DNA of 64,000 nt, from positions 372,001 to 436,000 of the forward strand of contig NZ_JACGXL010000004.1 of the NCBI RefSeq assembly GCF_014138265.1. Reading direction: 5' to 3'. The notes beneath the pieces are model-generated. The model was not told the origin of the DNA, ran no database searches, and saw only the letters and a program-made list of their open reading frames with translations. A program made the translations under genes and the position numbers. Positions 1 to 64,000 of this stretch are shown here, piece after piece; position 1 is the stretch's first letter; each line of letters starts with the position of its first letter. This DNA is from Dokdonella fugitiva. GTDB taxonomy: Bacteria > Pseudomonadota > Gammaproteobacteria > Xanthomonadales > Rhodanobacteraceae.

Positions 1-499
1 GATCCTGCAGGTCGGCACCGGCATCCACTACGGCGGCGCGCATTCGGACTACGACATCGTGCTGGTCAAGTGGCGCGCGGACGGGCAGCTCGACACGTCG
101 ATCGGCCCGCTCGGTGCGCGCGCGTACAGTCTCGACTTCGGCGGTGCGAATCCGGCCAACGCGATCGACAACTTCGACCGTGCCTATGCGTTGGCACGCC
201 AGGGCGACGGCAAGATCGTCATCCTCGGCGAAAGCCGCGCACCCGGTTCGCTCACCGGCGTCACGCTCGTGCGCCTCACGCCGTCGCTCGACCTCGACCC
301 GAGCTTCGGCGACGGCGGCAAGGCGCGCTACCTCGCGCAGGTCGCGACGGACGACCTCGACTGCACGTACGCGGTGAATCCGCTGGTCCAGCCGGGACGC
401 ATCATCGCGGGCGTGCAGGCCTGCATCGGCAATGCCACGCTGGCGCAGGCGACGATGGGCGTCGAGAACGACCTGCTGTTCGCCGACGGCCTCGACTGA
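1..499 (+). CDS. delta-60 repeat secreted protein, C-terminal part (5' end outside window)
   Basis: The reading frame is already open at base 2, so the start lies upstream and only about 165 residues are visible. The motif DPSFGDGGKARY is a delta-60 (TIGR02608-type) beta-propeller repeat, as in the complete protein at 31193-32629. The protein ends LLFADGLD at the stop, the C-terminal tail shared by many exported proteins of this window. A GTG at 59 could be read as a start but it falls inside the domain. The protein is probably extracellular or outer-surface; its function is unknown. Confidence 0.8.
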   Translation, partial: ILQVGTGIHYGGAHSDYDIVLVKWRADGQLDTSIGPLGARAYSLDFGGANPANAIDNFDRAYALARQGDGKIVILGESRAPGSLTGVTLVRLTPSLDLDPSFGDGGKARYLAQVATDDLDCTYAVNPLVQPGRIIAGVQACIGNATLAQATMGVENDLLFADGLD

Positions 500-506
500 A
501 GCGCGT

Positions 507-1178
507 TCAGCCGCCGCGCCAGGGCGAGATCGTGCAGATGTCGCCGCTGCATTCCGGGTCGTAGACCGCGTCGGCCTGGATCACGTTGATGTAGTAGTCG
601 GTGTCCGGGCGCAGGTCGCACGCGAGCGCCGGGCTCGACGTGTTGAACTGCCAGAAGATCATCATCCCGTCCGCGCTCGGCACGTCGCGCGCGAGGCAGC
701 CCGGCGAGGGCAGCCACCGCGAGAAGTCGCCGCACGCATAACTGATCGCGATCGTCGTGTGCGGGCTCGGCACCGATGCGGGATTGACGAACGATCCGAA
801 CATGCCCGGCACCACCGTGGCCGGCGTGTGGAAATGCGCCGCCACGTAATTCCATCGGTGGAACTGCTTGAACACCGGCGCGGCGCCGGTCACGCCCGGC
901 CACGACGTCACGCCGTCGTAGGGATTGTTGTGGCCCCAGATGTCGTCGTACTCGGCCAACGGCACGTCGCGCCGATACGCCGGCTGCGCGCCGTACTGGA
1001 TGTCCGACTTGAGCAGGCGCAGGCGCTGCGTGCCGTCGGGCACGAGGATCGTGTCGGGGCAATCGGTGATCGCGTCGAACTCGTCGGCGAACACGACTTC
1101 GTCCCACGACGGAGGTACGGCGGAACAGGGCACGGCGAGCACGAGCAGCAGGCCGGCGAGGGCAAGACGGATACGCAA
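507..1178 (-). CDS. secreted hypothetical protein, tandem paralogue A
   Basis: This 223-residue protein uses a TTG start at 1178, chosen because AGGAGG sits 8 nt upstream and the frame then opens with a typical signal peptide (RIRLALAGLLLVLAVPCSA). The mature chain begins near WDEVVFADEFD, a near copy of the tail found at the C-terminus of other proteins here. It is clearly homologous, along its whole length, to the next gene (1350-2012); shared blocks include IWGHN-PYDGVT-WPGVTG and FHRWNY-AHF-TPATV. Paired cysteines (SPGCLARD, ECSGDICT) suggest disulphides. No known domain was recognised. It converges with the preceding gene, leaving only 7 nt between their stops. Confidence 0.75.
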   Translation of the reverse strand: MRIRLALAGLLLVLAVPCSAVPPSWDEVVFADEFDAITDCPDTILVPDGTQRLRLLKSDIQYGAQPAYRRDVPLAEYDDIWGHNNPYDGVTSWPGVTGAAPVFKQFHRWNYVAAHFHTPATVVPGMFGSFVNPASVPSPHTTIAISYACGDFSRWLPSPGCLARDVPSADGMMIFWQFNTSSPALACDLRPDTDYYINVIQADAVYDPECSGDICTISPWRGG

Positions 1179-1349
1179 GGTCGTAGCCTCCTCTGGGCGA
1201 CGGGTGGCAAGGAAACGTCCACCACTGCAGAGCAGGCTTTCTGGACGACGTGGGAGAACGGCGGCGAAACCGCAACGCATCATCATGCGCGAGCGCGGAT
1301 TCCGATTTCGTTCGGAAAACATTGTGCGAGCGTTGGAGCGGCGCGCTCG

Positions 1350-2012
1350 TCAGTTGCGCCAGGGCGCGACCGGACAGATGTCGCCGGCACACTCCGTATG
1401 CGAGTCCTCGTCCGACTGGATGATGTTGACGTAGTAGTCGGTGTCGGTTTCGAGGTTGCAGGCGGTTTGCGGACTCGACGAGCCGAATTGCCAGAACACC
1501 ATGTAGGCGTCGGCCGTCGGTACGTCGCGGGTGATGCAGCCGGGAGTCGGCAGGTGGTTGGCGAAGTCGCCGCAGGCGCGGCTGATCGCCATCGTGGTGT
1601 TTGGCCCGGCGATCGATGCGGGATTCACGAAACGCCCGGAGAAGCCCGGCGGAACCGTCGCCGGCGTCCTGAAATGCGCGCCGATGTAGTTCCAGCGGTG
1701 GAATTCCTTGATGACGGGCGCTGAGCCGGTGACGCCCGGCCACGCAGTGACGCCATCATAGGGCGTGTTGTGGCCCCAGATGTTGTCGTACTCGCCGAGG
1801 TAGGCCGCAGGCCGGAACGTCGGGAATACACCGTAGGAAATGTTGGAATTGAGCAGGCGCATGCGCGCCGTGCCATCGGGCACGACGGTGGTCGACGGGC
1901 AGGTGGCGAAACCTTCGAAGGCGTCGGCGAAGACGACTTCGCCCCACGGCGACGCGGCATGGCCGGGCGCGGCTCCGACCAGAAGGGCGATACACAAGAG
2001 ACGTGGCTTCAC
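1350..2012 (-). CDS. secreted hypothetical protein, tandem paralogue B
   Basis: This 220-residue exported protein starts at a GTG (2012) behind a GGGGAG ribosome binding site; the signal peptide is KPRLLCIALLVGAAPGHA. Just after cleavage comes WGEVVFADAFEGFATCP, matching paralogue A (507-1178). The two genes are in the same orientation, 171 nt apart, and probably arose by tandem duplication. Conserved cysteines and aromatic-rich blocks suggest a compact beta-rich extracellular fold. Function is unknown. The A+T-rich stretch upstream (2060-2115) is the likely promoter of the pair. Confidence 0.75.
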   Translation of the reverse strand: MKPRLLCIALLVGAAPGHAASPWGEVVFADAFEGFATCPSTTVVPDGTARMRLLNSNISYGVFPTFRPAAYLGEYDNIWGHNTPYDGVTAWPGVTGSAPVIKEFHRWNYIGAHFRTPATVPPGFSGRFVNPASIAGPNTTMAISRACGDFANHLPTPGCITRDVPTADAYMVFWQFGSSSPQTACNLETDTDYYVNIIQSDEDSHTECAGDICPVAPWRN

Positions 2013-2059
2013 GGAGGGCTCCCCTGGAGCAATGCCGCAATCCCTCGCGTGCGTTCGGT

Positions 2060-2115
2060 GACGATATACACCAAGTATACCCATCAAGTACAGGTATACG
2101 CAGGATATTTTTAGC
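2060..2115. promoter_or_regulatory. A+T-rich promoter region with GTATACC inverted repeat
   Basis: A strikingly A+T-rich block lies just upstream of the minus-strand gene starting at 2012. GTATACC (2075-2081) and GGTATAC (2093-2099) form a perfect 7-bp inverted repeat with an 11-nt spacer. The TATAC elements could be -10 boxes or an operator. No exact -35/-10 pair could be assigned with confidence. Confidence 0.35.
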
Positions 2116-2179: not shown

Positions 2180-3565
2180 TCAGTCGAAGCCGTTCGCGAA
2201 CAGGCGGTCGCCGTCGGCCTCGAGCGCGCCGATGTCCGCGGCCACGCCGTGTACGCGCGCGAACGCGCCGCCACGCTGGTCCGCGCTGAGTCCCTGCGCG
2301 TTGTTCCCCGCATCGATCGCGGGGCTGTCCGCACGCAGCAGGTGCGTGCGCGTTCGGCCGCCGTTGTCGCCGAGGCCGACCAAGCGCGGATCGGCGGCGA
2401 TCGTGTCGGCCGGCACCGGTGAGGTGCCGTGGTTCTCGATGAGGTTGTCGGCGCCGCCGAACGAGGCGCCGAGACCTTCGCCGACGTCGGGCGAACCGGC
2501 CGCGCCGCCGTTGCGTGCGATGATCGAACTCTGCAGGTCCGCCGCGAAGCCGGTCTGGAACAGGCCGGCGCCGAGCGGCAGCGCTTCCTGGTTGAAGGCG
2601 ATCGTCGCGTTCGCGACCGTCAGTGCGGCCTTCGCGTAGACGCCGCCGATCGTCGCCATCGTCGCGCGGTTGCCCGAGATCGTGCTGTTCGCGATCAGCG
2701 AAGCGGGTACGGTGTTGCCGCCCTTGAGTTGCACGCCGCCGACGAAGCCGGCTTCGTTGCCGGACACGGTCGAGTTGCGCAAGCTCGCGCGGCCGCCCGC
2801 GACTGCGCCGCCACCGCTGCCGAACGGCGAGGCGAGCGCCGCGACGGTGTTGCCGTCGATGGTCGAATAGTTCGCGTCGACGACGCCGGTCACGTACGCG
2901 CCGCCACCATTGGCGAAGCCGGCCGAGGCGACGCTGTCGGCGCGGTTGCCGCTGATCGTGCTGTTCGTCATCGTGAGGTCGCCGTGCACGTACGCGCCGC
3001 CACCGACCGCGTTGCCGAGCGAGGAATAGACGCGGTTGCCGTCGACGTGGCTGCCGACCATCGCGAGGATGCCGTCGACGAACAGGCCGCCGCCGCGATA
3101 GGTGCTCGTGCCGGCGATGCCGACGACCTTGCAGTCGCGGATCGCGACATCGGTGAGTTGCACGTTGCCGCCGGAGTAGATGCAGCCGCCGGAGAGGAAA
3201 CCGCTGCCGTTGCGCAACGTGAGGCCGCTGATCGTGAGCACGCCGGCTCCGGTGTGCTGGAACACGCGGTCGTACGCGTTGCCGTCGATCGCGAGGAGGC
3301 CGGATCCGGGCCCCTGCACCGTGACGAAACTCGGCAGCTCGATGCGACCGGTGGTCAGCGTGATGAGGCTGCACTGCAACTGGCCGAGATCGATCACGTC
3401 CGTGTTGCCGGCCGCCTGCGCCGCCGCGCGCAGGCTGCCCGTGCCGCCGTTGAGGCAGTTCGTGACCGGGATCGTCGCCGCGCCGGCGGTGGCGCCGCAG
3501 AGGAGGAGCACACCGGCGGCGAGCGGTCGCAACGCAGGCATCGGCGGACGGGCGAAGCGGGACAT
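2180..3565 (-). CDS. choice-of-anchor Q / right-handed beta-helix secreted protein
   Basis: This 461-residue protein has a signal peptide (RPLAAGVLLLCGATAGA). Its start region, TNCLNGGTGSLRAA...LITLTTGRIELP, and end, PAIDAGN...DIGALEADGDRLFANGFD, are typical of the choice-of-anchor Q/CSLREA-like beta-helix proteins of gammaproteobacteria. The middle is a string of parallel beta-helix rungs (NSTISGN, ANSTISGNRA). The ATG at 3565 was chosen because it opens the signal peptide. The tail LFANGFD ends at the stop codon. It is a paralogue of 13733-15142. It is presumed to sit on the cell surface or outside; no catalytic residues were recognised. Confidence 0.8.
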   Translation of the reverse strand: MSRFARPPMPALRPLAAGVLLLCGATAGAATIPVTNCLNGGTGSLRAAAQAAGNTDVIDLGQLQCSLITLTTGRIELPSFVTVQGPGSGLLAIDGNAYDRVFQHTGAGVLTISGLTLRNGSGFLSGGCIYSGGNVQLTDVAIRDCKVVGIAGTSTYRGGGLFVDGILAMVGSHVDGNRVYSSLGNAVGGGAYVHGDLTMTNSTISGNRADSVASAGFANGGGAYVTGVVDANYSTIDGNTVAALASPFGSGGGAVAGGRASLRNSTVSGNEAGFVGGVQLKGGNTVPASLIANSTISGNRATMATIGGVYAKAALTVANATIAFNQEALPLGAGLFQTGFAADLQSSIIARNGGAAGSPDVGEGLGASFGGADNLIENHGTSPVPADTIAADPRLVGLGDNGGRTRTHLLRADSPAIDAGNNAQGLSADQRGGAFARVHGVAADIGALEADGDRLFANGFD

Positions 3566-8799: not shown

Positions 8800-10179
8800 A
8801 TGAAGCGATGCCTCGCCTGCCTCGCGCCACTCCTGTTCGCCGCGCCGATCGCGCACGCCGACACGCCACTCGCGACCGCCGCAGCGGGTGCGCTCGCGCA
8901 CCTGAAGACGACCACCGCGTCCAACGGCTGGGTCTACGCCGCCTTGGGCACGCAGTCCAACGGCACGGGTGGCGTGACGATCCTCAGGTCGACCGATGGC
9001 GGCGCGAACTGGAGCCCGTTCGCCGCGTACTCGGCGTTCGACAGCGACTACAACGGCGTCGATCTCGTCGTCAGCGGCAACGACGAGGCGAGCCTCGTGC
9101 TCGACGTCGCCGTGGTGAAGTCGCCGTCGGGCCCGACCTCGACGCTCACGGTCGACCGCTACGACGGCGCCAGCGGCACGCCGCTCGGCACCGCGTTCGC
9201 GTTGTTCAGCACCACGCACATCAAGGACGTCGCGATCGCCTCGGATTACCGCAAGCCGGGCGTCGGCACCTCGCCCTACAGCGTCGCGATCGCCTGGTCG
9301 CGCTTCACGCCCTCGCAGGACGAGATCGGCTATGCCGTGAGCACCGACGGCGGCGCGACCTACGCAACTACGCGCACCGTCGCCGGCACGTCGGCGACGT
9401 TCGGCCGCGTCGCGCTCGCATACGGCCGCAGCGCGAGCGGCTCGAACGGCCGCTACTACGTCGCCTGGGAACGCTTCGCGGCGGTCGACGACGTCGACGG
9501 CAGCATCTGCGAATCGCGCAACACGAGCACGGTCAGCAGCGCGTTCATCACGCCGGTCACGGTCAACCGCGCACCAGGCTCGAGCAACGACCCGTGTACG
9601 CCACCCGGCGCGCCCGCGCCGACGGAGTGCGACGCCGGCAGCGATCCCTGCCCCGAGTTCCCGGTCGTCGCAGCGACCGAAGGCGCCTGCCGCGCGCCGT
9701 CGATCGCCGTGCAGTACTCCGACGTCGACAACCCGATCGGCAGCAATACGACGCTCGTCACCGCGACCTGCGACCGTGCGCCCGGACTCGGCAACGTGGT
9801 CGGCTTCTACAACATGCGCGGGCACTACACGAATTTCTGGGGCCAGTTCGCGCCGACACCGGTCGGCAGCGGCGACGAACGCGATGCGCACGTCGTCTAC
9901 GACGACCACGACGCGACATTCCTGCTCACCTACGTCGATCGCGCCGCCCATGCGCTCGTGTTCAAGTCGAACGGCTTCGAATTCGCCGCGCCGAACGCGT
10001 GGACGCTCGGCAACGCCAACTACGCGGATCTCGTCGACGGCATCGACGATGCCGCGCCGCGCGTCGGCTTCGCGCCGCGATCGGGGCTGCCGAACTTCGC
10101 CTGGATCCGCCACGCTGCCGCGAACGACGTCGCCTACTTCGATCGCGGCGACCGCATCTTCGCCGACGGCTTGGACTGA
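8800..10179 (+). CDS. secreted BNR/sialidase-like repeat protein
   Basis: 459 residues with a signal peptide (residues 1-17, ending AHA). RSTDGGANWSPF and STDGGATYATTRT are Asp-box (BNR) repeats, S-x-D-x-G-x-T/W, typical of sialidase-like beta-propellers, although no sialidase catalytic residues were found. A cysteine-rich insert (NDPCTPPG, TECDAGSDPCPE) suggests disulphides. The protein ends DRIFADGLD, the tail common to this window. An upstream in-frame ATG at 8791 would add three residues. It probably recognises or displays an extracellular ligand; its role is unknown. Confidence 0.75.
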   Translation: MKRCLACLAPLLFAAPIAHADTPLATAAAGALAHLKTTTASNGWVYAALGTQSNGTGGVTILRSTDGGANWSPFAAYSAFDSDYNGVDLVVSGNDEASLVLDVAVVKSPSGPTSTLTVDRYDGASGTPLGTAFALFSTTHIKDVAIASDYRKPGVGTSPYSVAIAWSRFTPSQDEIGYAVSTDGGATYATTRTVAGTSATFGRVALAYGRSASGSNGRYYVAWERFAAVDDVDGSICESRNTSTVSSAFITPVTVNRAPGSSNDPCTPPGAPAPTECDAGSDPCPEFPVVAATEGACRAPSIAVQYSDVDNPIGSNTTLVTATCDRAPGLGNVVGFYNMRGHYTNFWGQFAPTPVGSGDERDAHVVYDDHDATFLLTYVDRAAHALVFKSNGFEFAAPNAWTLGNANYADLVDGIDDAAPRVGFAPRSGLPNFAWIRHAAANDVAYFDRGDRIFADGLD

Positions 10180-13732: not shown

Positions 13733-15142
13733 ATGACCGCCACGCGATCGCCCGGCCGCACCCGCGCATTGGCGCGCGCACTCGCGCTCTCGTTCGGCAG
13801 CGCGGTCGCCGGCGCCGCCGCCAGCGACGTTGCCACGCGCTCGAAGGCCGTGGACGCACCGCATGGTGCGAACTTCACGCTCACCAACTGCAACGACAGC
13901 GGCGCGGGCAGCCTGCGCCAGGCGATGCTCGATGCGCACAACAACACCACGGTCGACTTCAGCCAGCTCAGTTGCAGCCTGATCACGCTCACCAGCGGCG
14001 CGCTCACCGATCCGGACACCGATTCGCTCAAGCTCGTCGCGCCCGTGCGCGTCGTCGGCGGCAAGCCGCTGCCGAGCATCACGATCGATGCGAACGACCA
14101 CAGCCGCGTGATCGAGCACCGCTCGGGTGGCTCGCTCGAGATCACCGGGCTCGCGCTCAGCCACGGCCATACCAACGCGAACAAGGGCGGCTGCATCTAC
14201 GCGATGGGCCACGTCACCGCGACCGCGACCACGGTGAGTGCATGCACCGCGGCGTCCAACGACGCCAACGCCGCGCTTGGTGGCGGCATCTGGTCGAACG
14301 ACCAGGTCGACCTCGTGTTCAGCACGATCAGCGGCAACGTCGCGCTCGCGCGCGCCGGCGGCGGCTACGCCTACGGCGGCGGCGTGTTCAGCTCGTACGG
14401 GTTCTATGCGGTATTCAGTTCGATCACGAGCAACAACGCGACCGGCATCGGCTACGGTGGCGGCGTCGGCGTGACCGGCCCGGCGATGCTGCGGTCTTCG
14501 CTGGTGAGCGCGAACACCGCCGCCTACGGCGGCGGCCTCGGCCTGTTCGGCGGTCCCGACGTCGGCAGCAGCGATCTCGCGATCGTCGACAGCACGATCG
14601 CGTTCAACACCGCGACCGGCTTCGCCGGCGGCATCGAGGCGGGCGGCGACCTGACGATCCACAACAGCACGATCGCGCGCAACTACGGCGCACGCGCCGA
14701 TCACGCGAACGGCATCGTGATCGAGGGTTCGCACGTGCTCACGCTGGTTAGCAGCATCGTCGCCCTGAGCACACCCGGAGGCGACATCAGCGGCGCGGCG
14801 TCGATCGGCGGCGACCACGACTTCATCGGCCAGGCCAGCGTCGCCGTGCCGGCCGGCACGTTGTCGGGCGATCCGCATCTTTCCACCCTCGGCGACTACG
14901 GCGGGCAGACCATGGCGATCGGACTGCAACCGGGCAGTCCTGCGATCGGCGCAGGTGCGAATCCGCTCTCGCTCGTTTGCGACCAGCGCGGCGGAGGTTG
15001 GGCCGGCGCGTACGCGATGAGCGGACTCTATCCGCGCCAGGTCGGCGCGCAGGTCGATATCGGCGCAGTCGAGTTCGGCAGCGGCGACGCGATCTACGCC
15101 GACGGCTTCGAGGAACCGATCGCGAGCTGCTATCCGACCTGA
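13733..15142 (+). CDS. choice-of-anchor Q / beta-helix secreted protein, paralogue of 2180-3565
   Basis: 469 residues with a signal peptide (ALARALALSFGSAVAGAAA). The opening, LTNCNDSGAGSLRQAM ... SLITLTSGAL, and the glycine-rich rungs (GGGIWSN, YGGGVFSS, GGGLGLFGG) are beta-helix features shared with 2180-3565. The closing sequence (VDIGAVEFGSGDAIYADGFE) contains the shared tail, here followed by nine extra residues (EPIASCYPT), so the motif need not be strictly terminal. It is presumed extracellular. Confidence 0.8.
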   Translation: MTATRSPGRTRALARALALSFGSAVAGAAASDVATRSKAVDAPHGANFTLTNCNDSGAGSLRQAMLDAHNNTTVDFSQLSCSLITLTSGALTDPDTDSLKLVAPVRVVGGKPLPSITIDANDHSRVIEHRSGGSLEITGLALSHGHTNANKGGCIYAMGHVTATATTVSACTAASNDANAALGGGIWSNDQVDLVFSTISGNVALARAGGGYAYGGGVFSSYGFYAVFSSITSNNATGIGYGGGVGVTGPAMLRSSLVSANTAAYGGGLGLFGGPDVGSSDLAIVDSTIAFNTATGFAGGIEAGGDLTIHNSTIARNYGARADHANGIVIEGSHVLTLVSSIVALSTPGGDISGAASIGGDHDFIGQASVAVPAGTLSGDPHLSTLGDYGGQTMAIGLQPGSPAIGAGANPLSLVCDQRGGGWAGAYAMSGLYPRQVGAQVDIGAVEFGSGDAIYADGFEEPIASCYPT

Positions 15143-36638: not shown

Positions 36639-38135
36639 TCAGCGCCCATCGAAGCCGTCGTCGAAGATGAAGGCGGGATCGGTGTCGAGCAGCAGGTCGA
36701 GGTTGGTGACTGCGTTCGGGTAGCCCGACGAGATGTGCAAGGTGCCGAAGCGCAGCGTGTTGTTGCCGTCGACGAGTTCGGACAGCGGCACGTCGATCGC
36801 GTGGTTGTAGCCGCCGGTCTGCCCCGGTGAATCGAGCATCGCGACTTCGCCCGGCGTGAACGCGCGCTCGTGCGCGGGATGGCCGTTGAGCTGCCAGCGC
36901 AGGCGGCCCGTACCGAGGCGGATGCCGTCGATGTCGTAACCCTGGTAATAGCCGTTGAAGACGAGCCGCGCGCGCGTCGCGTGGCGCAGCGACACCGCGC
37001 GGAACACGAGCGGGTCGCCGAGCGCGCCCACGCCGTCGGGGATCACGTAGCCGAGGCTGAGGCCGGGATGTTCGATCACGTTGATCACGCCGGGCGGAAA
37101 TTCGTCGGTGGTCGTGAACGTGTGCGGGACCTCCGAAGCCGGCACCTCGTACTCGCGCGTGCCCGGCAGCACCGGGCCGTCGAAGCCGATGTTGTCCCAG
37201 TACGTGTTCCACGAGCGCAGCGGTCGCGGCAGGTCGCCGAACGTGATGCCGTACTTCCAGGTCGCGTGGTTGTGCGCGATCAGCGAGACGTAGCCGCGCG
37301 TGAACGGCAGCGGCGTCGCGAACGTGTCGACGCGCCGGCTCACGAGCGGGCCGAACGTGACGCCGTCGGCCGACGGTTCCGAGGTGAGCACCTCGATCTG
37401 CTGCGTCGACAGGCGCAGCTCGACGCGGCAGAGGTGGCCGCGCTGGCGCGGCACGTCGCTCGACGTGCCGGGCAGGTCCGTCATCGCATGGTCGCGCACG
37501 TCGTGCACTTCGATCGGGCTGCCGAGGAACACGACGACGACGCCGTTGCGCGGGTTCGGACCGCGGCCGTTGACGTCCCACGTCGGCGCGGGCGACGGAT
37601 CCTCGCTGACCACGACACTCGTGTAGCCGAGCAGGAAGTTCGAGGCGAGGTCGGTGTCGAACACGATGCGACCGGTGCGGTTCGCGAAGTCGAACGGCTG
37701 GCGGATGCGGTACGCATTGCTGCCGTAGTTCTGCGAGCCGACCGCGGTCATGAGGTAACGACTCTGGATCGGCGGCGACGGATCGCAGACGAGCGTGTCG
37801 CGTGTCGGCATGAGCAGACCCGTGACGTCGGCGCGGCACGGCGGCGGCTCTTCGGGGATCAGGCCGAACTCCGCTTCCCACACCCAGAACGTGACGCCGT
37901 CGCCCGTCGACAGCGATGGTGCGTAGCGCGTCGCGCTGAAATGGGTGCGGCTCAGTTCGACGCCGCGACCGCGGTCCCACGCCGGCGCGGGTCCCTGCTC
38001 GAACGTTTCGCAGAACGCGGGCTGCGCGAGCGGGCACGTGGCCGCATCGGCGGCGGCGCCGGCGAACAGCAACGATGCGCCGATGCACGCACGGTGCACT
38101 CGCCGAGCGTGGCGACGGGTTCGATGACCGCGCAT
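36639..38135 (-). CDS. secreted concanavalin-like / multi-domain protein
   Basis: 498 residues with an export signal (ACIGASLLFAGAAADAA). It opens with PAFCETFEQGPAPAWDRGRG, the usual first strand of a jelly-roll (LamG/polysaccharide-lyase-like) domain, and continues with FWVWEAEFGLIPEEP, QPFDFANRTGRIVFDTDL and NHATWKYGITFGDLP. A second beta domain (about 330-480) precedes the end, PAFIFDDGFDGR, the shared tail. The ATG at 38135 follows GGGGAG. Likely an extracellular glycan-binding protein; substrate unknown. Confidence 0.7.
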   Translation of the reverse strand: MRGHRTRRHARRVHRACIGASLLFAGAAADAATCPLAQPAFCETFEQGPAPAWDRGRGVELSRTHFSATRYAPSLSTGDGVTFWVWEAEFGLIPEEPPPCRADVTGLLMPTRDTLVCDPSPPIQSRYLMTAVGSQNYGSNAYRIRQPFDFANRTGRIVFDTDLASNFLLGYTSVVVSEDPSPAPTWDVNGRGPNPRNGVVVVFLGSPIEVHDVRDHAMTDLPGTSSDVPRQRGHLCRVELRLSTQQIEVLTSEPSADGVTFGPLVSRRVDTFATPLPFTRGYVSLIAHNHATWKYGITFGDLPRPLRSWNTYWDNIGFDGPVLPGTREYEVPASEVPHTFTTTDEFPPGVINVIEHPGLSLGYVIPDGVGALGDPLVFRAVSLRHATRARLVFNGYYQGYDIDGIRLGTGRLRWQLNGHPAHERAFTPGEVAMLDSPGQTGGYNHAIDVPLSELVDGNNTLRFGTLHISSGYPNAVTNLDLLLDTDPAFIFDDGFDGR

Positions 38136-39078: not shown

Positions 39079-39393
39079 ATGCACCCGTCCACTACGCGCC
39101 CGGGCGGGCGCGGGCGCCTGCTTGCGTCCGGCCTCGCCCTCGCGCTCGCCGCACTGCTCGTGTCGCCGGCTTCAGACAGCCGCGCGGGCACGCCGACCTA
39201 TTCCATCGACTTCCATCGCGTCGGTTCCGGCGCTGCGCGGCTGCGCGGTGCGTGCTACCGCCTCGCCGGCAGCGTCGGCGAAGCCGCGCCCGGCTATTCG
39301 AGCGGGCCGACGATGGAAGTGGTCTCCGGTTTCTGGGCCGCCGCGGGCAATCCGCCGGACCAGATGTTCTTCAGCGGATTCGAGGGGTGCTGA
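39079..39393 (+). CDS. small secreted protein ending FFSGFEGC
   Basis: 104 residues with a signal peptide ([24 protein letters not shown]). The mature part ([40 protein letters not shown]) resembles small partner proteins commonly found before collagen-like or repeat proteins. It ends FFSGFEGC, a version of the shared tail with a terminal cysteine. Its stop is two bases before the ATG of the collagen-like gene, so the two are surely co-translated. Confidence 0.75.
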
Positions 39394-41909: not shown

Positions 41910-42386
41910 ATGAACATCCAGCCCGTTGCCGCGTTTCGACCAAGCCTCGCCCGCATCGCGGCCGCCGTCGCGCTAACGTACGCGTGCACGGCGGCGGCCG
42001 GGCAGCCATTGCTCACGTTCGTGCCGCTCACGCCGACGACGCTCGTACTGCCGGTCGACGGCGAGGCCTCGGTGCAGTACGCCGTGACGAACCCGTCCGT
42101 ATCGCCGCGCACGTTCGTGATCACGCCGATCGCCGGCGTCGACATCGATACTGCGGGTGGCCACTGCGCCGATCCGTTCGTGCTCGCGTCGCACCAGTCG
42201 TGCACGCCCGCGCTGCACCTGGTCGGCAGCGCGATGGGCGGCGACATCGACGGCGGTCCCGTGGCCTGCGTCGACGGCAATCCGCTGCAGTGCTGGCAGC
42301 CGTCGCCGGTCGACCAGTTGCACGTCACGCTCGTCGACGACGTCGTGTTCGCGGACGGCTTCGAGATCGCGCCGCTGTCGGCGTAG
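41910..42386 (+). CDS. small secreted protein with shared tail
   Basis: 158 residues with a signal peptide (IAAAVALTYACTAAAG). The mature chain, FVPLTPTTLVLPVDGEASVQYAVTNPSVSPRTFVITPI, resembles an Ig-like or DUF11-type fold, followed by CADPFVLASHQSCTPALHLVG with paired cysteines. The tail VVFADGFE is followed by IAPLSA. GGAGG precedes the ATG at 41910; a possible -10 (TATCAT) is at 41881-41886. Confidence 0.7.
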   Translation: MNIQPVAAFRPSLARIAAAVALTYACTAAAGQPLLTFVPLTPTTLVLPVDGEASVQYAVTNPSVSPRTFVITPIAGVDIDTAGGHCADPFVLASHQSCTPALHLVGSAMGGDIDGGPVACVDGNPLQCWQPSPVDQLHVTLVDDVVFADGFEIAPLSA

Positions 42387-50819: not shown

Positions 50820-53174
50820 TTACGGATCGAAACCATTCTGGAAGATGTTGTCATCCGGGTCGGTTTGGCCATCGTCGGGCGCGACCTGGATCGAGTCGAG
50901 CCAGTAGCCGGCCCAGCCGTTGTTCTGGTCGGTCACCACGCGCCAGCGAAGTTTCACGTCCTGCCCGTTCGCCGCGTGCGGCAGCGCCACCAGCACCGAA
51001 GAATACGGAACGTCGCCACTCCACACGCCCGCTCCCGGCAACGCGTTGCCGACGCCCTGGGCGATCACGTGGTCGTATCCGCCCTGCACGATCTGGCCGC
51101 CGGCTTCGGTGACCTCGCGAAACTCCGTGTCGTTGCCGATCTGGATCTCCAAGCGCGCACCGTCATAGGCGGTGACGTTGTCGGCCGCTTCGAGCCCGAC
51201 GCGTTGGCGGAACGAGACCTGGCCGCCATGCACGACATGGAACGGCGTCGTCGTGAGGGTCGCGTCGTTCGCGTTGCGTGCATCGGGCGCGAATGCCGAG
51301 TACATGCCGCTGTCGACCTGGTCGTTGGCGAGCACCCACACCGATTCCGGATGCGACGACACGTTCTGCCAGTTCGCCGGCAGCGTTCCGGCCGGGCCGA
51401 GCTCGTCGAAGGTTTCGACCGGCGGGAACGTCACGGGGATGGAGACATCGATGTGCTGCACCTCGTAAGCGCCGAGGTCGAACAGTCCGAGGTTCGGGCT
51501 GCCCGCCGCCTGCACCACGTCGATGCCGCGCGGGTGGTTGTCGAGGTCGTACTGTGTTCCGGTCGGCGAGGCATCGACGGCCGGCGATCCATCCTGCAGG
51601 TGCAGGTCGCCGGCACCCGCGTTGACGAACAGCGGGTCGGCATTGAACGCGTTGAAGAACTGTACGAAGTCGGCGGGGTTCCATTCGCCCGCATCGCTGG
51701 CGATCACGTCGCGCACGCTGTGCCCGCTGCCGCCGAGCGTCGGGTTCTGCGGCTCCCAGATGATCGAGTCGTACAGCGAGAACACCGTACCCGATTCGCG
51801 GAACACCTTGACGCCGGAGGCGAGGTGGTTGCCCGCGATCGAGCATTGCACGACGCCGAGCGTCGCGTGGGCCGTCGTCACGAGCGAGTTCGCGAAGTCG
51901 TTGCCGGTGATCACGCAATCGGACAGCTGCGGGTCGGTGCTCGTCGAGCTGTACATGAGGTTGCCGCCGAAGTTCGACGCGAGCAGGACGTGGCGCAGGT
52001 ACACACCGGCGCTCGAGCCCTCGTTGATGTTGATGGTCGCGGTGTTCTGGCGGTCGCTGACGTTGTTGGTGATCGTGTTGCAGGGCTGGCCCGCCGTGCA
52101 GTTGGCGAAACCGTCGAGCGTCCCGGGACACGCGGACGCGATGTCGTCCGCATAGACGTGGGCGTTGCCGCCGTTGACCTGGATCGCCGAGCCGTTGCCG
52201 CCGACCGTGGTCGCGTTGAAGTTGATGCCGCCGCCGACCATGCAGAACGTCGGCGCGCCGCCTTCGCCACTGAGGTACACGCCCGCGCCCGCCGCGGCCT
52301 GGTTGTTCTCGATGCGCGCGAGCTGGCCGGGCACCGCGGTGTACAGGTTGAGCACGGCATTGTTCTCGACCGAGACACCGCCGCCGACACGCGCCTTGTT
52401 CACGTTGATGTAGGCGAAGCCGCTGTTGCCCGGCGAGCCGATGTTCGCCGTGGTGTTGTCGCGCATCTGCAGACCGCCGCCGGAACCGTCGGACGAATTC
52501 GGGTTGGCCACGTTGTTGTCGATCGACGCCGGGTTGCCGAGCGCGGTCAGGTGTACCGTGCCTTCGAGGCGGATGCCACCGCCCGAGATCGATGCCGTGT
52601 TCGATTCGATCCAGCTGTAGTCCTCGAGCGACATCAGCGCGTTGTTCGACGTGCTCCGGTAGAACACGCCCGCGCCGCGGCCCGCCTTGTTGTTGTTGAT
52701 GATCGAGCTGGCGATCGCGAGGAACGAGTGATCACCGCTCCCGTTGTAGGCGATGCCGCCACCGTTGCCGCTGCCATTGTCGGCACCGTGCACGTTGAAG
52801 TTGTGCAGGGCGAGCCGCGAGTTGCCGCTGACCGAAATGGCGGGACGGCCGGAATTGCGGGAGCCGTCGATTTCCGAGAGGTCGCTGAAGTTCAGGCCGG
52901 TGTACGGAATCGGGCTGGGGGCGTCGCAACTCGGATAGCCGCCGAATATCCAGATCGACTTGTTGTTGTACGAGATCGGGCCGCTGACGTAGCCCGCGCG
53001 GACGTGGAGTTCGTACGTGCCGGTCGTGGACTGCGCGTCGATGGCGGCCTGGAGGTCGTTGTACTGGCATCCGGAGCCGACCGACACGTAGGCCGCCGCA
53101 TGGCCCGCGAACAGCAGCATCAGGGTGCCGAACGCCCGCGCGATGCGGCGGGTGGATGGGTATAGCGAACTCAT
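50820..53174 (-). CDS. large secreted beta-helix protein with C-terminal jelly-roll domain
   Basis: 784 residues with a signal peptide (AFGTLMLLFAGHAAA). CQYNDLQAAIDAQSTTG opens a long right-handed beta-helix (many NNKAGRGAGVFYR, SIDNNVANPNSSDGSGGGL and INVNKARVGGGVSVENN-like rungs). After LFDLGAYEVQHIDVSIPVTF comes a separate beta domain (ETFDELGPAGTLPANWQN ... AGYWLDSIQV) of choice-of-anchor/MAM type. It ends DDNIFQNGFDP, a diverged shared tail. GGAG lies before the ATG at 53174. Confidence 0.8.
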   Translation of the reverse strand: MSSLYPSTRRIARAFGTLMLLFAGHAAAYVSVGSGCQYNDLQAAIDAQSTTGTYELHVRAGYVSGPISYNNKSIWIFGGYPSCDAPSPIPYTGLNFSDLSEIDGSRNSGRPAISVSGNSRLALHNFNVHGADNGSGNGGGIAYNGSGDHSFLAIASSIINNNKAGRGAGVFYRSTSNNALMSLEDYSWIESNTASISGGGIRLEGTVHLTALGNPASIDNNVANPNSSDGSGGGLQMRDNTTANIGSPGNSGFAYINVNKARVGGGVSVENNAVLNLYTAVPGQLARIENNQAAAGAGVYLSGEGGAPTFCMVGGGINFNATTVGGNGSAIQVNGGNAHVYADDIASACPGTLDGFANCTAGQPCNTITNNVSDRQNTATININEGSSAGVYLRHVLLASNFGGNLMYSSTSTDPQLSDCVITGNDFANSLVTTAHATLGVVQCSIAGNHLASGVKVFRESGTVFSLYDSIIWEPQNPTLGGSGHSVRDVIASDAGEWNPADFVQFFNAFNADPLFVNAGAGDLHLQDGSPAVDASPTGTQYDLDNHPRGIDVVQAAGSPNLGLFDLGAYEVQHIDVSIPVTFPPVETFDELGPAGTLPANWQNVSSHPESVWVLANDQVDSGMYSAFAPDARNANDATLTTTPFHVVHGGQVSFRQRVGLEAADNVTAYDGARLEIQIGNDTEFREVTEAGGQIVQGGYDHVIAQGVGNALPGAGVWSGDVPYSSVLVALPHAANGQDVKLRWRVVTDQNNGWAGYWLDSIQVAPDDGQTDPDDNIFQNGFDP

Positions 53175-53385: not shown

Positions 53386-54480
53386 ATGCGCAACCCCACG
53401 AAGGCGCTGCCTAAGGCACGCGCTTTGTCCTTCGGCCTGCTGGCGATCACGAGCCTGCCGCTGGCAGCCGCAGGCCCGTATGCCTACGTCGCATCGAACT
53501 TCGACGCGACGGCGTCGATCGTCGACCTCGCCGACACGGCGGCGACGCCGATGCAGCTGAGCGTCACGACACCGCGCAACCCCGGTTTTTATGGCAGCGC
53601 GCTCAGTGGCAAGGACGGCATGCTCTACCTCTCCGCTGACTTCGACGAGGCCGTGTACCAGTTCAACACGACGACGCGAGCGTTCGTGCGACGGATCGCG
53701 GTCGGCGACAACCCGCGCGGCATTGCCGTCGATGCGGGCGGCCGCCACGTGTATGTCGCCAACTTCGCGTCGACGACGCTGTCGGTCATCGACACGACGA
53801 CGCAGGCGGTCACCGACGTCGGCCTGCCCAACTACAGCGGCGGTTTCGCCAAGCCGCTCGGGGTCGCGTTGAACCTCGCCGGCACGCGCGCCTACGTCAC
53901 GGATACGTCGCCGGGCCATCGCCTCTGCAAGGTCAACACCGTCGCGCTGCCGGACACGACCAACGATTGCGTCGAAGTGGGCGAAAACGATTCGGCTCTG
54001 CCGACCGCGGTCGCGGTCAGCCCCGACGGCGCGCGCGTCTACGTGGTAATACACGGCAGCGGCTCGGCCGTCGCGGTGGTCGACGCGGTCACGATGCAGG
54101 TGCTGCGCACGATCCCGCTCGGCTTCAGTTCGCCCAACGGCATCGCGATCAGCGCTTCCGGCAAGCGCGCGTACGTCGGCACCACGAGCGGCGTCATCTC
54201 GGTGCTCGACCTCACGCGCGTGTCCGACGCCGGCCAGAATCCGCTCATCGACACGATCGACGACCCGGCGGTCGCGTCGGTGCAGGGCGTATCGATCTCT
54301 CCCGACGGAACGCGCCTGCTGGCGGTCGACAGCGGCAACAACGTGCTGCACGTCGTGAACATCGTCGGCGATGCCGACACGATCGTCGCCAGCGTACCGG
54401 TGAACCAGGGGCCGTACGCACTCGGCTCGTTCACGGCACCCGATGCGATCTTCGTCGCAGGCTTCGAAAAAACCGGCTGA
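53386..54480 (+). CDS. secreted YVTN-type beta-propeller protein
   Basis: 364 residues with a signal peptide (ALSFGLLAITSLPLAAAG). Blades such as NPRGIAVDAGGRHVYVANFAS, TTLSVIDTTTQAV, SPDGARVYVVIHGSG and SPNGIAISASGKRAYVGTTS are YVTN/YncE-like repeats of a seven-bladed propeller. It ends DAIFVAGFEKTG, a variant of the shared tail. AGGAG lies before the ATG at 53386. It diverges from the large beta-helix gene. Confidence 0.82.
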   Translation: MRNPTKALPKARALSFGLLAITSLPLAAAGPYAYVASNFDATASIVDLADTAATPMQLSVTTPRNPGFYGSALSGKDGMLYLSADFDEAVYQFNTTTRAFVRRIAVGDNPRGIAVDAGGRHVYVANFASTTLSVIDTTTQAVTDVGLPNYSGGFAKPLGVALNLAGTRAYVTDTSPGHRLCKVNTVALPDTTNDCVEVGENDSALPTAVAVSPDGARVYVVIHGSGSAVAVVDAVTMQVLRTIPLGFSSPNGIAISASGKRAYVGTTSGVISVLDLTRVSDAGQNPLIDTIDDPAVASVQGVSISPDGTRLLAVDSGNNVLHVVNIVGDADTIVASVPVNQGPYALGSFTAPDAIFVAGFEKTG

Positions 54481-58410: not shown

Positions 58411-60549
58411 TCAGCGCGCTTCGAAACCGTACGCGAAGATCACGTCGCCGCCGCCATCCCAGACCGGCCCGGTGGTATCGACGTGCATGCCCTGCACCCC
58501 GGCAGCGAGCGGCGTCGTTTCGCCATCGCCGATGCGCACGCTGCCGCCGGACGACTGCATGCCCTTGGCCAGCACGATCGTCGCGGTGCCGCGCCCCGGA
58601 TGCGACAGCGTGACCTGCCAGTGATCACCCTCGTCCTGCAATTGCGCGTCGATCGGCTGCTCGCCGTCGTCGTGCCCGGTGACGACATTGAGGAAATAGC
58701 TCTCGGCCGAACCGATCGAATCGAGTTCGAGGCGGTACTGCCCGGCCTGCGCGTCGCCCGGCTGGTCTTCGTTGAAGACGCGCACCGATGGCGACGCCAC
58801 CGCGTACGGCGACGCCGGCACCAGCGTGATCAGCTCGGCGGTCTGCGTGCCGGCCGGTGCCGTCATGCGGTTGCCGCCGGACGCGGTCGGCGCGCGTTCG
58901 AAATGCATGACGAACGTGCGTCGCACCGCGGCCGCCGCCTCGTGCGGCCCGTCCTCCAGCCACTGGCCGCTGGCGTAGAACGGGCGCTGCGAGTCCGACG
59001 ACGCGCGCATGCGATCCAGCACGACGAGCGCCTGCAGCGGGCGGATGAAGAGGAACTCACGGATCGCGATCTCCGCATACGGCCAGTCCACGCGCGTGTC
59101 GAGGCCGTTGCGGTACGCATCGGACAGATCGACCGCGGCGAACGCGAACTGCGGTGCGTGCTGCAGGCGCACGACATGCGGCAGGCCGCGGGGCTGGTCG
59201 CCGCCCGGCGACACCGGCAACGGCCCGGTGCTGCCGATCCAGATGCCGGTCGAGCGGCCTTCGAACAGCAGCGCGTTGTGCGCGACCGGGTCGGTCGAAT
59301 CGGTCGTGCCGTGGTCCATGAAGCCGGCGAGCGCGTCGGCGTAGCCGGTGCTTTCGCGCGTCATCCAGCGCCCCTTGCGCCACAGCTGGAAGCTGCCGCC
59401 GTCGAGGTGACGATGCTCGATACCGCCCGGCGTGCCGAGCTGCAGGTGTACCTGCGTCGCGTCGCCTGTGTGGCTGGTGCGCGCATCGAACACCTCGGCG
59501 CCCTTCGCGTAATAGTCGAGCGGCATCGAAGCGAGGTCGGCGACGCTGCCGGTCGTACCGAGCGCGTCGAACATCCAGCGTCGGCCCGCACCGGTCGCGG
59601 CGCGCCACGCGAGGGCGTGATGCGCGTTGCCGCTGGCGGGATTGCGTGTGCCGAACCAGGTCGCGAAGTCGCCAAGGTAGTCGCGCAGATTGATCGCACC
59701 GCCTTCGTAGAAATGTTCGTCGTCGTTGAACGGGAAGAAGCTCGCCTCGTTCGCAGCCTCGCCGTCGATCGTCGAGGGACCCGGCGTGCTGCCGTAGGCG
59801 AGCGCGTAGATCGCCTCGGTGTAATAGGGCGTCTGCGCGAACGGGTCGTAGCCGAAATCCGCGGCGGACGCGAATGCGATCAGCGGATAGGAAAGACTCA
59901 CGACGCCGTAATCGTCGCCTTCCGGGAACACGCCGCCGACGCCGAAATCGCCGTACCAGCGCGTGAAGTCCACCCCCATGCGCTGCTCGAGCGCGTCGTC
60001 GATGAACTCCTGCGCGCGCGGATTCTCGCCGGTGCTCGCGATGCCCCACAGCAGCAGGTTGCGCGTGCGCCCGGCCCAGTAGTTGTTGGCTTCCTTGCCG
60101 GTATTGCCGAGCGTGTCGGCAAGTTCCCGGTCCATGTACCCGTTCCAGCGGGTGACCAGCGTCTGGATTTCCGCCGCGGTCAACCGGTCGTGGCACCAGT
60201 CGAACTCCAGCATCAGATCCTCGCCCTCGCCGCGCACGTCGTCGCGGAAGCCACCGTCGCCATTGCTCGCCTGCCAGTCGCGCACGTGGTGTGCGGCCGT
60301 CGTGCAATCGGCGGCGCTCCCGGTGAGCAGGCCGCGCAGGGCGAGACCGGCATAGTCGTCGGCGGCCGGCGTGAAGGCGTGCGTGCCGTAGTACGTGCGC
60401 GCCTGCTGCAGGCGGGCGGCATCCCCATAGAAGAGGCGCGGATGCGTCGCGGGCACCTGCAGCTGCACCGCGGCGGCACTGCCCGCCCAGAGCGCGGCGA
60501 GCAGGATGCCCCGTCTTGCCCAAGAGAACGAACGCGCGCGAAAGGACAT
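58411..60549 (-). CDS. secreted heparinase II/III-like protein
   Basis: 712 residues with a signal peptide (WARRGILLAALWAGSAAA). The N-terminal half is an alpha-helical toroid (VPATHPRLFYGDAARLQQART, NYWAGRTRNLLLWGIASTGENP, EGDDYGVVSLSYPLIAFA). The second half holds GIEHRHLDGGSFQLWRKGRW, which resembles the heparinase II/III beta-sandwich with its histidine. Polysaccharide lyase activity is an inference. It ends GGDVIFAYGFEAR, the shared tail. GGGGAA precedes the ATG at 60549. Confidence 0.75.
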   Translation of the reverse strand: MSFRARSFSWARRGILLAALWAGSAAAVQLQVPATHPRLFYGDAARLQQARTYYGTHAFTPAADDYAGLALRGLLTGSAADCTTAAHHVRDWQASNGDGGFRDDVRGEGEDLMLEFDWCHDRLTAAEIQTLVTRWNGYMDRELADTLGNTGKEANNYWAGRTRNLLLWGIASTGENPRAQEFIDDALEQRMGVDFTRWYGDFGVGGVFPEGDDYGVVSLSYPLIAFASAADFGYDPFAQTPYYTEAIYALAYGSTPGPSTIDGEAANEASFFPFNDDEHFYEGGAINLRDYLGDFATWFGTRNPASGNAHHALAWRAATGAGRRWMFDALGTTGSVADLASMPLDYYAKGAEVFDARTSHTGDATQVHLQLGTPGGIEHRHLDGGSFQLWRKGRWMTRESTGYADALAGFMDHGTTDSTDPVAHNALLFEGRSTGIWIGSTGPLPVSPGGDQPRGLPHVVRLQHAPQFAFAAVDLSDAYRNGLDTRVDWPYAEIAIREFLFIRPLQALVVLDRMRASSDSQRPFYASGQWLEDGPHEAAAAVRRTFVMHFERAPTASGGNRMTAPAGTQTAELITLVPASPYAVASPSVRVFNEDQPGDAQAGQYRLELDSIGSAESYFLNVVTGHDDGEQPIDAQLQDEGDHWQVTLSHPGRGTATIVLAKGMQSSGGSVRIGDGETTPLAAGVQGMHVDTTGPVWDGGGDVIFAYGFEAR

Positions 60550-62102: not shown

Positions 62103-62349
62103 TTTCACGAGCGCATTATTACCTGCCCGCGAGGGCAGCCGCACGCTCTCCGTGGGTCGCACGGTTTGCCTGGCCTCTCGGCCTGGATGAATGCGCGTTC
62201 CGCCGCTGTTCCGCATCCGCATGATCGACTGGCGCCATCCGCGTCGCGCTCCGTCACGCGAGCCCGCATCGTCGCGCTTGCGGTAGCATTCGCGGCATCA
62301 CGCGTGACAGCGCCGCGGCGGTGCCACGACGACCTGAAGGAGCACGCGG

Positions 62350-63819
62350 ATGGACGCAATGGGAAAGGTGGCGGTACTGGGACTGGTACTGGCCGGTGGA
62401 TCCGCGCACGCGTACGACCTCACGGCGTTGTGGGAGTCGCGCAACGCGGGCATGACCGACACGTTCTACACGACCTACTACAACGACCACGCGATCTCGG
62501 GGCCGGCCAACGGCTTCGTCGACCATGGCGTCGCCGCCTGGTTGCCGTGCTCGAGCAACGCGCTGGACGGGCCGTTCGGCGAACCCTCGTACAAGGGCAC
62601 GCCCGCCGCGCCCGACGCGCCCGCGGGCGATGGCCTGGCGCCGTCGCGCTCCGGCCACGGCTACGCCGTGCGCATGGACTTCGCGTGCGCGCCGCCGGCC
62701 GACGCGCGGCCGCTGTATCGCCTGTACAAGTCCCGGCCCGAGACCGATCACGTCTACACGACGTCGGCCGAGGAAGTCGCTGCGCTCGAAGCGAGCGGCT
62801 ACGGCTTCGACCGCGTGGAAGGCTATCTCTTCACGTCGCAGGTCGACGGCTCGACCGCGCTGTATCGCCTGCGCAAGGACAACCGCGCGACCGGGCAGAC
62901 CGTCGAACACCGCTACACGCTGAGCGCGAGCGCGCGCGCGAGCCTGCGCGCGAAAGGCTGGTTGGACGAAGGCGTCGCCGGCTACGCATTCGCGTCGTAC
63001 GTGAACCCGACCGTCGCGGCGGTCGGTTTCGCGGGCACCTACAACGGCACGAACGTGTCGCCGACGACGCCGGTGACCGTGCCGATCCGCGACGTCGTGC
63101 CGCTCAGGTCGCAGCTCGCGCTCGGCGGCAGCCCGTCCGGCAGCAGCGTCTACGGCATGCACGCATCCAACGTGACGAAGCGCCCTGCGGGCGCCGCGTG
63201 GCAGAGCCTGAGTTTCGATCTCTACACCGGCACCTGGTTCCCGCCCGTGCCGGACGCGTCGCCGCTCGATCACATGCCGATGTATCTGCATTACGCGAGC
63301 CAGGCCGCGGCGAACCAGCTGTCCGCGGTACCGCCGTACGACGGCGTCGCGATCACCTTCGTCCCCGGCAATACGCTCAACGGTACCGTCTGCGACACGG
63401 TCGCGAACACGGGCGGGCAGATCGTGTTCGAGATCGGCGAAGGCACGATCTCCTGCGGCCCCGTGCTCGCGACGCCGCTGCGAGCCAACACCTGGTACCA
63501 CGTGGACTACGCGCTCGACGATGCCGCGCGCGTGCGCCTCACGGTCACGCAGCGCGCGACCGGCGTGCCGCTCACGTTCGCCGACGGCACGACGACCTAT
63601 GCCGGCACCGTGGCTGGCTTCTACGCGTGTCCGATACAGCCGCCGTTCGGCAGCCTCTACGCCGACGACTCGTTCTGCGCGAACCCGTACAGCGCGCACG
63701 GATTCCCGTCCGCGAACACCGGCTACTTCATCTACGCGAAGATGCGCGCGACGGATATCTCCGCGCAGATGCGCAACCTCAGGGTGCAATGGCTCGATGC
63801 GGGCTTCGCGCCGCTCTGA
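62350..63819 (+). CDS. secreted DUF5648-repeat protein
   Basis: 489 residues with a signal peptide (KVAVLGLVLAGGSAHA). PLYRLYKSRPETDHVYTTSAEEVAAL and EHRYTLSASARASLRAKGWLDEGVAGYAF are two DUF5648-type repeats (Y-x-Y/R ... D/E-H-x-Y-T ... GW/Y), known from secreted proteins with lipase- or peptidase-linked domains. The C-terminal half (FDLYTGTWFPPVPDASPL ... ITFVPGNTLNG) is a beta domain. It ends WLDAGFAPL, without a clear tail. ATG at 62350 with AAGGAG upstream. Confidence 0.75.
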   Translation: MDAMGKVAVLGLVLAGGSAHAYDLTALWESRNAGMTDTFYTTYYNDHAISGPANGFVDHGVAAWLPCSSNALDGPFGEPSYKGTPAAPDAPAGDGLAPSRSGHGYAVRMDFACAPPADARPLYRLYKSRPETDHVYTTSAEEVAALEASGYGFDRVEGYLFTSQVDGSTALYRLRKDNRATGQTVEHRYTLSASARASLRAKGWLDEGVAGYAFASYVNPTVAAVGFAGTYNGTNVSPTTPVTVPIRDVVPLRSQLALGGSPSGSSVYGMHASNVTKRPAGAAWQSLSFDLYTGTWFPPVPDASPLDHMPMYLHYASQAAANQLSAVPPYDGVAITFVPGNTLNGTVCDTVANTGGQIVFEIGEGTISCGPVLATPLRANTWYHVDYALDDAARVRLTVTQRATGVPLTFADGTTTYAGTVAGFYACPIQPPFGSLYADDSFCANPYSAHGFPSANTGYFIYAKMRATDISAQMRNLRVQWLDAGFAPL

Positions 63820-63879
63820 CGGCGTCGGCGGCTGCAGCACGCCGCTGCCGCAGGGCGTTCGTTGGCGTGTTCGTCGGGA

Positions 63880-64000
63880 CTAACCCTCGAAACCGTCCTT
63901 GAAGATGTCCGCGCCGATGAGCACGACGTCGTCGACGAAGAATCGATCGGCACCGCCCAAGCCGGTGGAGTAGGTGCGGATCACGATATCGTCGAAGTGC
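63880..64000 (-). CDS. secreted protein, C-terminal end only
   Basis: About 39 residues before the stop at 63880, continuing beyond the window. DRFFVDDVVLIGADIFKDGFEG shows the final strand of a choice-of-anchor-type beta-sandwich followed directly by the shared tail DIFKDGFEG. The rest is outside the window. Confidence 0.7.
   Translation of the reverse strand, partial: HFDDIVIRTYSTGLGGADRFFVDDVVLIGADIFKDGFEG

Follow-up and report, generated by a model that had tools for sequence, protein, structure and literature searches.

How the type II secretion system (T2SS) recognises its cargo is an open question. In the available excerpts of two papers, no common linear T2SS signal is known (PMC12369372, PMC7949064); there, the PDZ domains of EpsC and OutC are involved in selecting substrates, the GspC PDZ domain binds or selects some substrates (PMC12369372), and a nine-residue exposed loop of PelI is described as the signal read by GspC and GspD (PMC7949064). 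Pseudomonas PlcH and PlcN, according to the excerpt of a third, travel first by the twin-arginine (Tat) route and afterwards by the T2SS (PMC4899797). Here we describe a short peptide tail shared by many exported proteins in a 64,000-nucleotide stretch of DNA (the window), which covers positions 372001–436000 of contig 4 within the 4.77-Mb genome of Dokdonella fugitiva. Dokdonella is an environmental genus with a cultured species. We regard it as near certain that the tail is a genuine short signal carried by exported proteins, specific to one order and apparently unnamed, and suggest that it is probably a linear recruitment signal for a second, order-specific T2SS (T2SS-A), a reading drawn from correlation only, with exceptions both ways.

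Across the whole genome, the DNA pattern NTNTTYNNNRAYGGNYTNGAN gave 176 matches, compared to 2 for the pattern read backwards. We read 96 distinct sites, comprising loci from about half of the 176 genome matches together with the window; 82 of them lie no more than 25 residues from the stop (71 no more than 5), three come directly after a signal peptide and 11 are located elsewhere, some of these apparently between domains, with L005 resembling a further N-terminal case. The first-pass annotation of the window had described a C-terminal tail, which holds for the 82 sites near a stop and not for the few copies found after a signal peptide or inside proteins. The consensus, D-x-[ILV]-F-x-[DN]-G-F-[DE], is usually followed by 0–5 residues, and only 0–22 residues trail the motif in the 82 tails. 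Among these, D stands two residues before the motif in 72, followed by F in 81, G in 82, the second F in 75 and a last residue that is D in 58 and E in 24, with any residue, often A, between F and D/N; the search pattern itself required the D/N and G but left the position of the leading D free. A weight matrix trained on the 82 tails was applied, with a threshold score of at least 6, to the window and to 20 evenly spaced 20-kb stretches chosen independently of the matches. It recovered 25 of 393 C-termini, as against 0 of 1510 interior windows and 1 of 393 reversed C-termini; since the matrix was trained partly on the genes being scored, the nulls are the informative part, and they show that the motif does not occur at random interior positions. 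Codon choice varies between tail matches, AT-rich genomes included, with the peptide being kept. The tail is real, held at the peptide level, modular, and carried by proteins with signal peptides.

When the tails were removed, 80 tailed genome proteins formed 42 BLAST clusters (2 of the 82 were dropped as too short, and many are 5'-truncated by the locus), and 13 window proteins formed 12, those at 2180 and 13733 being a pair; the proteins are not one family, and the annotation was right to call them unrelated. Its description of them as exported is likewise borne out by a signal-peptide-like N-terminus, seen by eye in 12 of the 12 window proteins with a complete start. A crude automatic signal-peptide test was positive in 19 of 25 tailed genes compared to 117 of 368 others, and the six tailed genes missed by it had a cut start, were mis-started, or plainly carried a signal peptide by eye. 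A survey of Pfam and NCBIfam models covered 72 tailed proteins (the window's ten omitted, one protein replaced by a longer copy), for which the 25 commonest families were listed (25 of 56 for NCBIfam). Among the Pfam matches listed were beta-helices (8), FG-GAP (5), PQQ-type propellers (5), DUF5122 repeats (4) and subtilases (2), as well as a phospholipase C, an M64 peptidase, Kelch and others. Among the NCBIfam matches listed, choice-of-anchor Q was present in 11 of the 72, and single tailed proteins matched choice-of-anchor J, a MYXO-CTERM-anchored family and M36 families. These M36 families are elsewhere rhombosortase- or myxosortase-dependent, and some of the matched families elsewhere end in GlyGly-CTERM or MYXO-CTERM. 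From such choice-of-anchor and GlyGly-/MYXO-CTERM-type matches it follows that the tail occupies the place that known sorting signals take in other bacteria, without a membrane helix or basic end. The absence of a hydrophobic helix or basic end from all 82 tails agrees with the earlier view of the tail as unlike PEP-CTERM and GlyGly-CTERM, and no sorting-signal model of Pfam or NCBIfam was found in 10 window proteins, for which the matches were complete, nor among the families listed for the 72.

The protein at L037:10320-12512 has phospholipase C domains and, by eye, a twin-arginine-like leader, with the Tat-signal Pfam model below cut-off; one tailed protein matched the NCBIfam phosphocholine-specific phospholipase C at 1.4e-270, and is taken to be the same protein. 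In the predicted structure of a tailed beta-helix protein the body is mostly at pLDDT 80–97, and nearly all of residues 389–461, tail included, fall below 50. This model is weakly compatible with a loose tail, given its 17-row alignment and a domain before the tail that is also unresolved. A search of viral contigs found no relative of the FG-GAP protein. In the subtilase at L021:504-2885 (minus strand) the motif, VFADGLD, is internal, in a region with a weak PA domain match.

Tail counts in 249 Lysobacterales genomes were bimodal, reaching 200 in some genera and staying at background in many. In a sample of the class (276 genomes, 4 Lysobacterales) the top count outside the order was 10, reached by two genomes with controls of 5 and 12, and in a sample of the phylum (299 genomes, 8 Lysobacterales; slightly stricter pattern) it was also 10, in G579. 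A strict tail-plus-stop pattern, run over a collection of 84,980 species, matched 23 stretches; 22 were labelled Lysobacterales, Lysobacteraceae, Rhodanobacteraceae or Dokdonella, and the 23rd, labelled only Gammaproteobacteria, belongs to a genome whose GspD coordinates are those of G037, a Lysobacterales genome. This strict pattern favours GC-rich codon use, so that AT-rich lineages outside the class were little tested by it. In the samples searched, the tail is confined to the order Lysobacterales and is patchy inside it. No description of it was found in the open-access literature searched, common tail strings included; subscription papers and preprints fell outside this scope, so the search is no proof of absence. 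As a separate observation, the 10 tail-pattern matches of G579, outside Lysobacterales, compare with 0 in its control.

A search for GspD in 61 genomes returned matches in 60, including all 31 tail-positive genomes searched. As GspD was present regardless of the tail, the T2SS in general was rejected as a partner, and only the class A secretin discriminates. Nearly all tail-positive genomes in this search have two kinds of secretin (the exception is G047). Scored against the G000 protein, class A GspD reached 489–1488 bits and class B less than 165, with distant class A relatives in G180 (466 bits) and in a second copy of G057 (324 bits). In the secretin tree, a branch with 100/100 support divides A from B, and within A most sequences cluster with others of their family, as would be expected for vertical descent. 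Class A loci have the order gspC-gspD-gspE(-gspF), often beside rho, trx, rhlB and then ftsEX (neighbours assigned by eye). When the class A profile over the 249 genomes was combined with counts of tails of both the G type and the R/S type described below, 73 of 78 genomes with clear class A had at least 13 tail matches (median 51.5), compared to 3 of 163 genomes with class B only (142) or a distant A-like secretin (21; median 4 in each group). This comparison leaves out eight fragmentary assemblies, seven of them with at least 13 matches; six have partial class-A-like matches and two (G047 and G114) none. Fisher's exact test gave p = 1.6e-51 for the association of the tail with T2SS-A, a value to be read with the relatedness of the genomes and a threshold chosen after seeing the data in mind. 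At the genus level, 30 genera have both tail and T2SS-A, 46 have neither and 4 are discordant. Both states occur within each of the families f1, f2, f8 and f9; provided that these are natural groups, this points to four or more parallel absences. Among genomes picked by tail and stop alone, all 11 that were searchable had GspD-A at 916 bits or more (a twelfth was not searchable); four of the 11 were already in the panel, with identical coordinates, and seven were new, including Dokdonella fugitiva A3. The first-pass annotation had called for a co-occurring gene and named no partner; T2SS-A was found to be one that co-occurs.

Rhombosortase was also considered as a partner and rejected: matches over cut-off came from 3 of 61 genomes, and none of the three has the tail. 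In G180, a genome without the tail, a distant class-A-like gspC-gspD-gspE-gspF, with pseudopilin-like genes recognised by eye, adjoins a rhombosortase gene scoring over cut-off (131.6 bits) at L135 (contig 47, 11000–30900), so that here a T2SS subclass is physically linked to rhombosortase. Next to gspC-A, a 503-aa protein without a Pfam match (L117:6591-8102, minus strand) has DDTIFRYGAE as its last residues, which may be a degenerate tail.

Genera g31 and g68 have class A and no G-type tail. Of 25 choice-of-anchor Q loci in these genera, 12 end in a variant, nine as (I/L/V/M)FxDRFE and three in looser form, with SDSIFNDRFEQP and DEIFQDRFESN as examples of the R type; one further locus has an internal copy, and the others run past the stretch read, are unreadable, or end otherwise. 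The R/S pattern is enriched in most g31/g68 genomes (92 vs 2 in G036, 43 vs 1 in G009); in the small genomes G080 and G144 the counts are 2 and 6. The occurrence of R-type tails in T2SS-A genera lacking the G type is a prediction borne out: the G of the tail is swapped for R or S in some lineages. Residue 145 of GspD-A (G000 numbering) is acidic in 15 of 16 species of R-type genera compared to 2 of 26 G-type species, where R-type was assigned by genus, G080 and G144 with their few tails included, and the R-type species are close relatives. Co-evolution of machine and signal at this residue is possible, a lead confounded by kinship. Charge compensation between the R-type tail and T2SS-A was first suggested by 3–4 R-type sequences, where both this residue and residue 270 of GspC looked acidic only in the R type; with more sequences, GspC-270 failed an 85% threshold. 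Tail replacement was surveyed in 28 genomes, all without clear class A except G207 (class A, no tail). Choice-of-anchor Q was present in six of them, at 14 loci, of which seven have a visible stop, five run off the locus and two are unreadable; in none of the seven with a visible stop does the protein end in the tail. Two of the seven end at the choice-of-anchor Q domain itself, and in G051, which has rhombosortase and no T2SS-A, the C-terminus of one such protein is a membrane helix with basic residues.

From the precedents of the GspC PDZ domain, the PelI loop and PlcH/PlcN, we infer that the tail is an exposed peptide recruiting folded cargo to T2SS-A. Tailed proteins would cross the inner membrane by Sec or Tat and then fold, with the flexible tail staying exposed on the folded periplasmic cargo; periplasmic parts of T2SS-A (the GspC PDZ domain and/or the GspD N-domains) would bind it, and the pseudopilus would then push the cargo out. 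The tail is probably uncleaved, and some cargo may remain on the cell surface. Copies at N-terminal and interior positions are easier to explain by reading of the peptide in trans than by cleavage. GspC-A has T2SSC and PDZ domains, and the best structural matches of the modelled PDZ domain are EpsC (2i4s) and PulC (5hj1); that this domain in particular binds the tail is a guess, and a rather doubtful one. We see evenly balanced chances for the broader proposition, namely that this nine-residue, position-tolerant tag is the first common linear T2SS signal, borne by folded proteins that number from dozens to perhaps two hundred in a genome. The T2SS that they use would be a dedicated one, ancestral in Lysobacterales, and in one lineage it would have diverged jointly with its signal (G to R). 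If true, a common linear T2SS signal would be both important and testable, as the substrates are said to share none. With a tag shared by many Dokdonella proteins, cargo recognition could be tested directly, by grafting the tag onto other proteins and by assaying peptide binding. The secretome of much of a bacterial order would become predictable from genome sequences, and the tag could find use in biotechnology as a means of export.

Several observations weigh against recruitment by T2SS-A. The threshold of 13 matches is post hoc, and the association is uncorrected for phylogeny. Three f8 genomes without T2SS-A have a few tails (28, 13 and 14 matches in G058, G088 and G133, respectively); 22 of their sites were fetched and 21 read, and in 13 of these a stop follows within 7 residues (for one, the frame, of 45 codons, is doubtful), and other f8 genomes without T2SS-A have up to 11 matches. 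The fragmentary G047 and G114 have many tails and no GspD-A match, and counting both would give 5 of 165 genomes. Five T2SS-A genomes (G207, G059, G073, G080 and G144) have no tail, and the pseudopilins of T2SS-A were not located in the Dokdonella genome. Classic PDZ binding, in which a free C-terminus is recognised, is disfavoured by the N-terminal and interior copies and by the 0–22 residues that trail the motif. A link between rhombosortase and a T2SS subclass was sought earlier and not found, as far as the available excerpt goes (PMC3237569), a null which implies that T2SS co-occurrence alone can mislead. Another gene may fit the tail better than T2SS-A.

We consider it unlikely, albeit not strongly so, that the tail is instead a surface-attachment or modification signal for some other outer-membrane or periplasmic factor, with T2SS-A merely exporting the same class of proteins. 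The tail does stand in place of known anchors, as in the choice-of-anchor Q proteins (11 of the 72, among the families listed), and the helix and basic residues ending the G051 protein point the same way; attachment would also account for f8 tails without T2SS-A, and T2SS components are reported, in the same excerpt, to co-occur with GlyGly-CTERM (PMC3237569). However, the 82 tails lack a membrane helix, a fixed cysteine or a cleavage-like residue, the copies at the mature N-terminus and inside proteins would be unusable by a C-terminal transpeptidase, and no partner enzyme was found, rhombosortase not fitting and exosortase and myxosortase not having been searched for. The annotation had proposed a sorting, processing or attachment signal; a sorting-type signal on exported proteins stands, whereas processing and attachment are without direct support. 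It is improbable that the tail is read by the T2SS generally in the order, including the Xps-like class B, and that its link to T2SS-A is partly a by-product of lineage: class-B-only f8 genomes do keep a few genuine tails, but no class-B-only genome of f1 or f2 (120 in all) exceeds 12 matches, despite having class B secretins.

The alternative raised by the annotation, which explains the tail by a jelly-roll domain of which it would be a relic or the first strand (F-x-D-x-F-E-x-G), has been largely refuted and retains only a very slight chance. Two non-terminal sites (the second site of L004, and L005) resemble such starts by eye, and the window genes near 507–1193 and 1350–2087 have FADEFD-/FADAFE-like stretches near the mature start, but 82 of 96 sites stand at the protein end with at most 22 residues after them and nothing of a domain following; the last residue is more often D than E (58 vs 24), a D precedes the motif by two positions almost invariably (72 of 82), and the tail is shared by 42 clusters and present in 176 copies as against 2 reversed. 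Fainter still is the chance that it is a stability or quality-control tag for periplasmic proteases or chaperones. Periplasmic PDZ proteases are widespread, which sits poorly with a tail that, in the samples searched, occurs in a single order and only patchily there, even though PDZ proteases such as DegS bind C-terminal peptides, as the excerpt of one paper states (PMC12369372).

Returning to the window, its tail density is high, with 14 tails per 64 kb. A six-frame scan with the strict motif [IVLFM][FYW]x[DN]G[FLYMI][DEN] gave 11 matches and no further strict match, all 11 being terminal, 0–9 residues ahead of the stop; the tail is present in each of the 14 window proteins named by the first-pass annotation, as a strict match in 11 and as a variant in three. 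Four tails directly precede the stop codon: LFADGLD at 476..499 (plus strand) in a delta-60 repeat protein (1–499, start outside the window), LFANGFD at 2180..2203 (minus strand) directly after the choice-of-anchor Q domain of the protein at 2180–3565, IFADGLD at 10156..10179 (plus strand) in the protein at 8800–10179, and IFADGFE at 27446..27469 (minus strand) in the FG-GAP protein at 27446–28819. The 8800–10179 protein has a weak BNR match and, at residues 17–216, a match far below the model's cut-off to TapA, a protein dependent on the type IX secretion system (T9SS). A single residue follows the tail in the beta-helix protein at 26234–27406 (IFADGFD+G, 27380..27406, plus strand), the delta-60 repeat protein at 31193–32629 (IFADGLD+P, 32603..32629, plus strand), and the proteins at 50820–53174 (IFQNGFD+P, 50820..50846, minus strand) and 63880–64000 (IFKDGFE+G, 63880..63906, minus strand; start beyond the window). 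Residues 612–764 of the 50820–53174 protein have below-cut-off matches to late parts of rhombosortase/myxosortase-dependent M36 models. The remaining strict tails are IFDDGFD+GR at 36639..36668 (minus strand; protein 36639–38135), VFADGFE plus six residues at 42345..42386 (plus strand; 158-aa exported protein 41910–42386) and IYADGFE plus nine residues at 15092..15142 (plus strand), after the choice-of-anchor Q domain of the protein at 13733–15142. The variants are MFFSGFE+GC at 39364..39393 (plus strand) in a 104-aa exported peptide (39079–39393; matrix score 3.7, under the threshold), IFVAGFE+KTG at 54448..54480 (plus strand) in the propeller protein at 53386–54480, and IFAYGFE+AR at 58411..58440 (minus strand) in the protein at 58411–60549.

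Two similar-looking neighbouring small proteins without a Pfam match, at 507–1193 and 1350–2087 (both minus strand), have the FADEFD-/FADAFE-like stretch near the mature N-terminus, with L005 resembling a third; they may be N-terminally tagged relatives of the tailed proteins. Between two tailed genes, at 54847–58391, lie an ECF sigma factor (PF07638) and a Ser/Thr protein kinase with TPR repeats, and a second ECF sigma/kinase pair is located near gspC-A (L117:3384-6513). Such pairs may regulate the tailed proteins or T2SS-A.

Compared with described systems, the tail resembles the C-terminal signals of type I secretion system (T1SS) substrates in position. T1SS signals are uncleaved and C-terminal, and T1SS proteins are not known to carry N-terminal signal peptides, unlike the tailed proteins. 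The C-terminal domain (CTD) of T9SS cargo is a folded domain of some 70–100 residues that directs proteins across the outer membrane once Sec has exported them; like the tail it is a many-to-one signal, but the tail has about 10 residues instead of a folded domain, too short for a T9SS domain as had been judged at the outset, and, at E<=1, none of 10 window proteins has a CTD model among its NCBIfam matches. GlyGly-CTERM/rhombosortase, PEP-CTERM, MYXO-CTERM and LPXTG share with the tail a short C-terminal homology on many unrelated exported proteins per genome, and the GlyGly-CTERM group is, like it, patchy across species and found after the same choice-of-anchor domains; unlike this group, the tail has no helix or basic end, occurs also at N-terminal or internal positions, and does not co-occur with rhombosortase. 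The T2SS determinants of PelI/Pel3 (loop 3) and VesB (Ig fold) belong, as do the tailed proteins, to folded cargo exported by Sec or Tat. These determinants are substrate-specific, whereas the tail is one linear motif on many proteins per genome.

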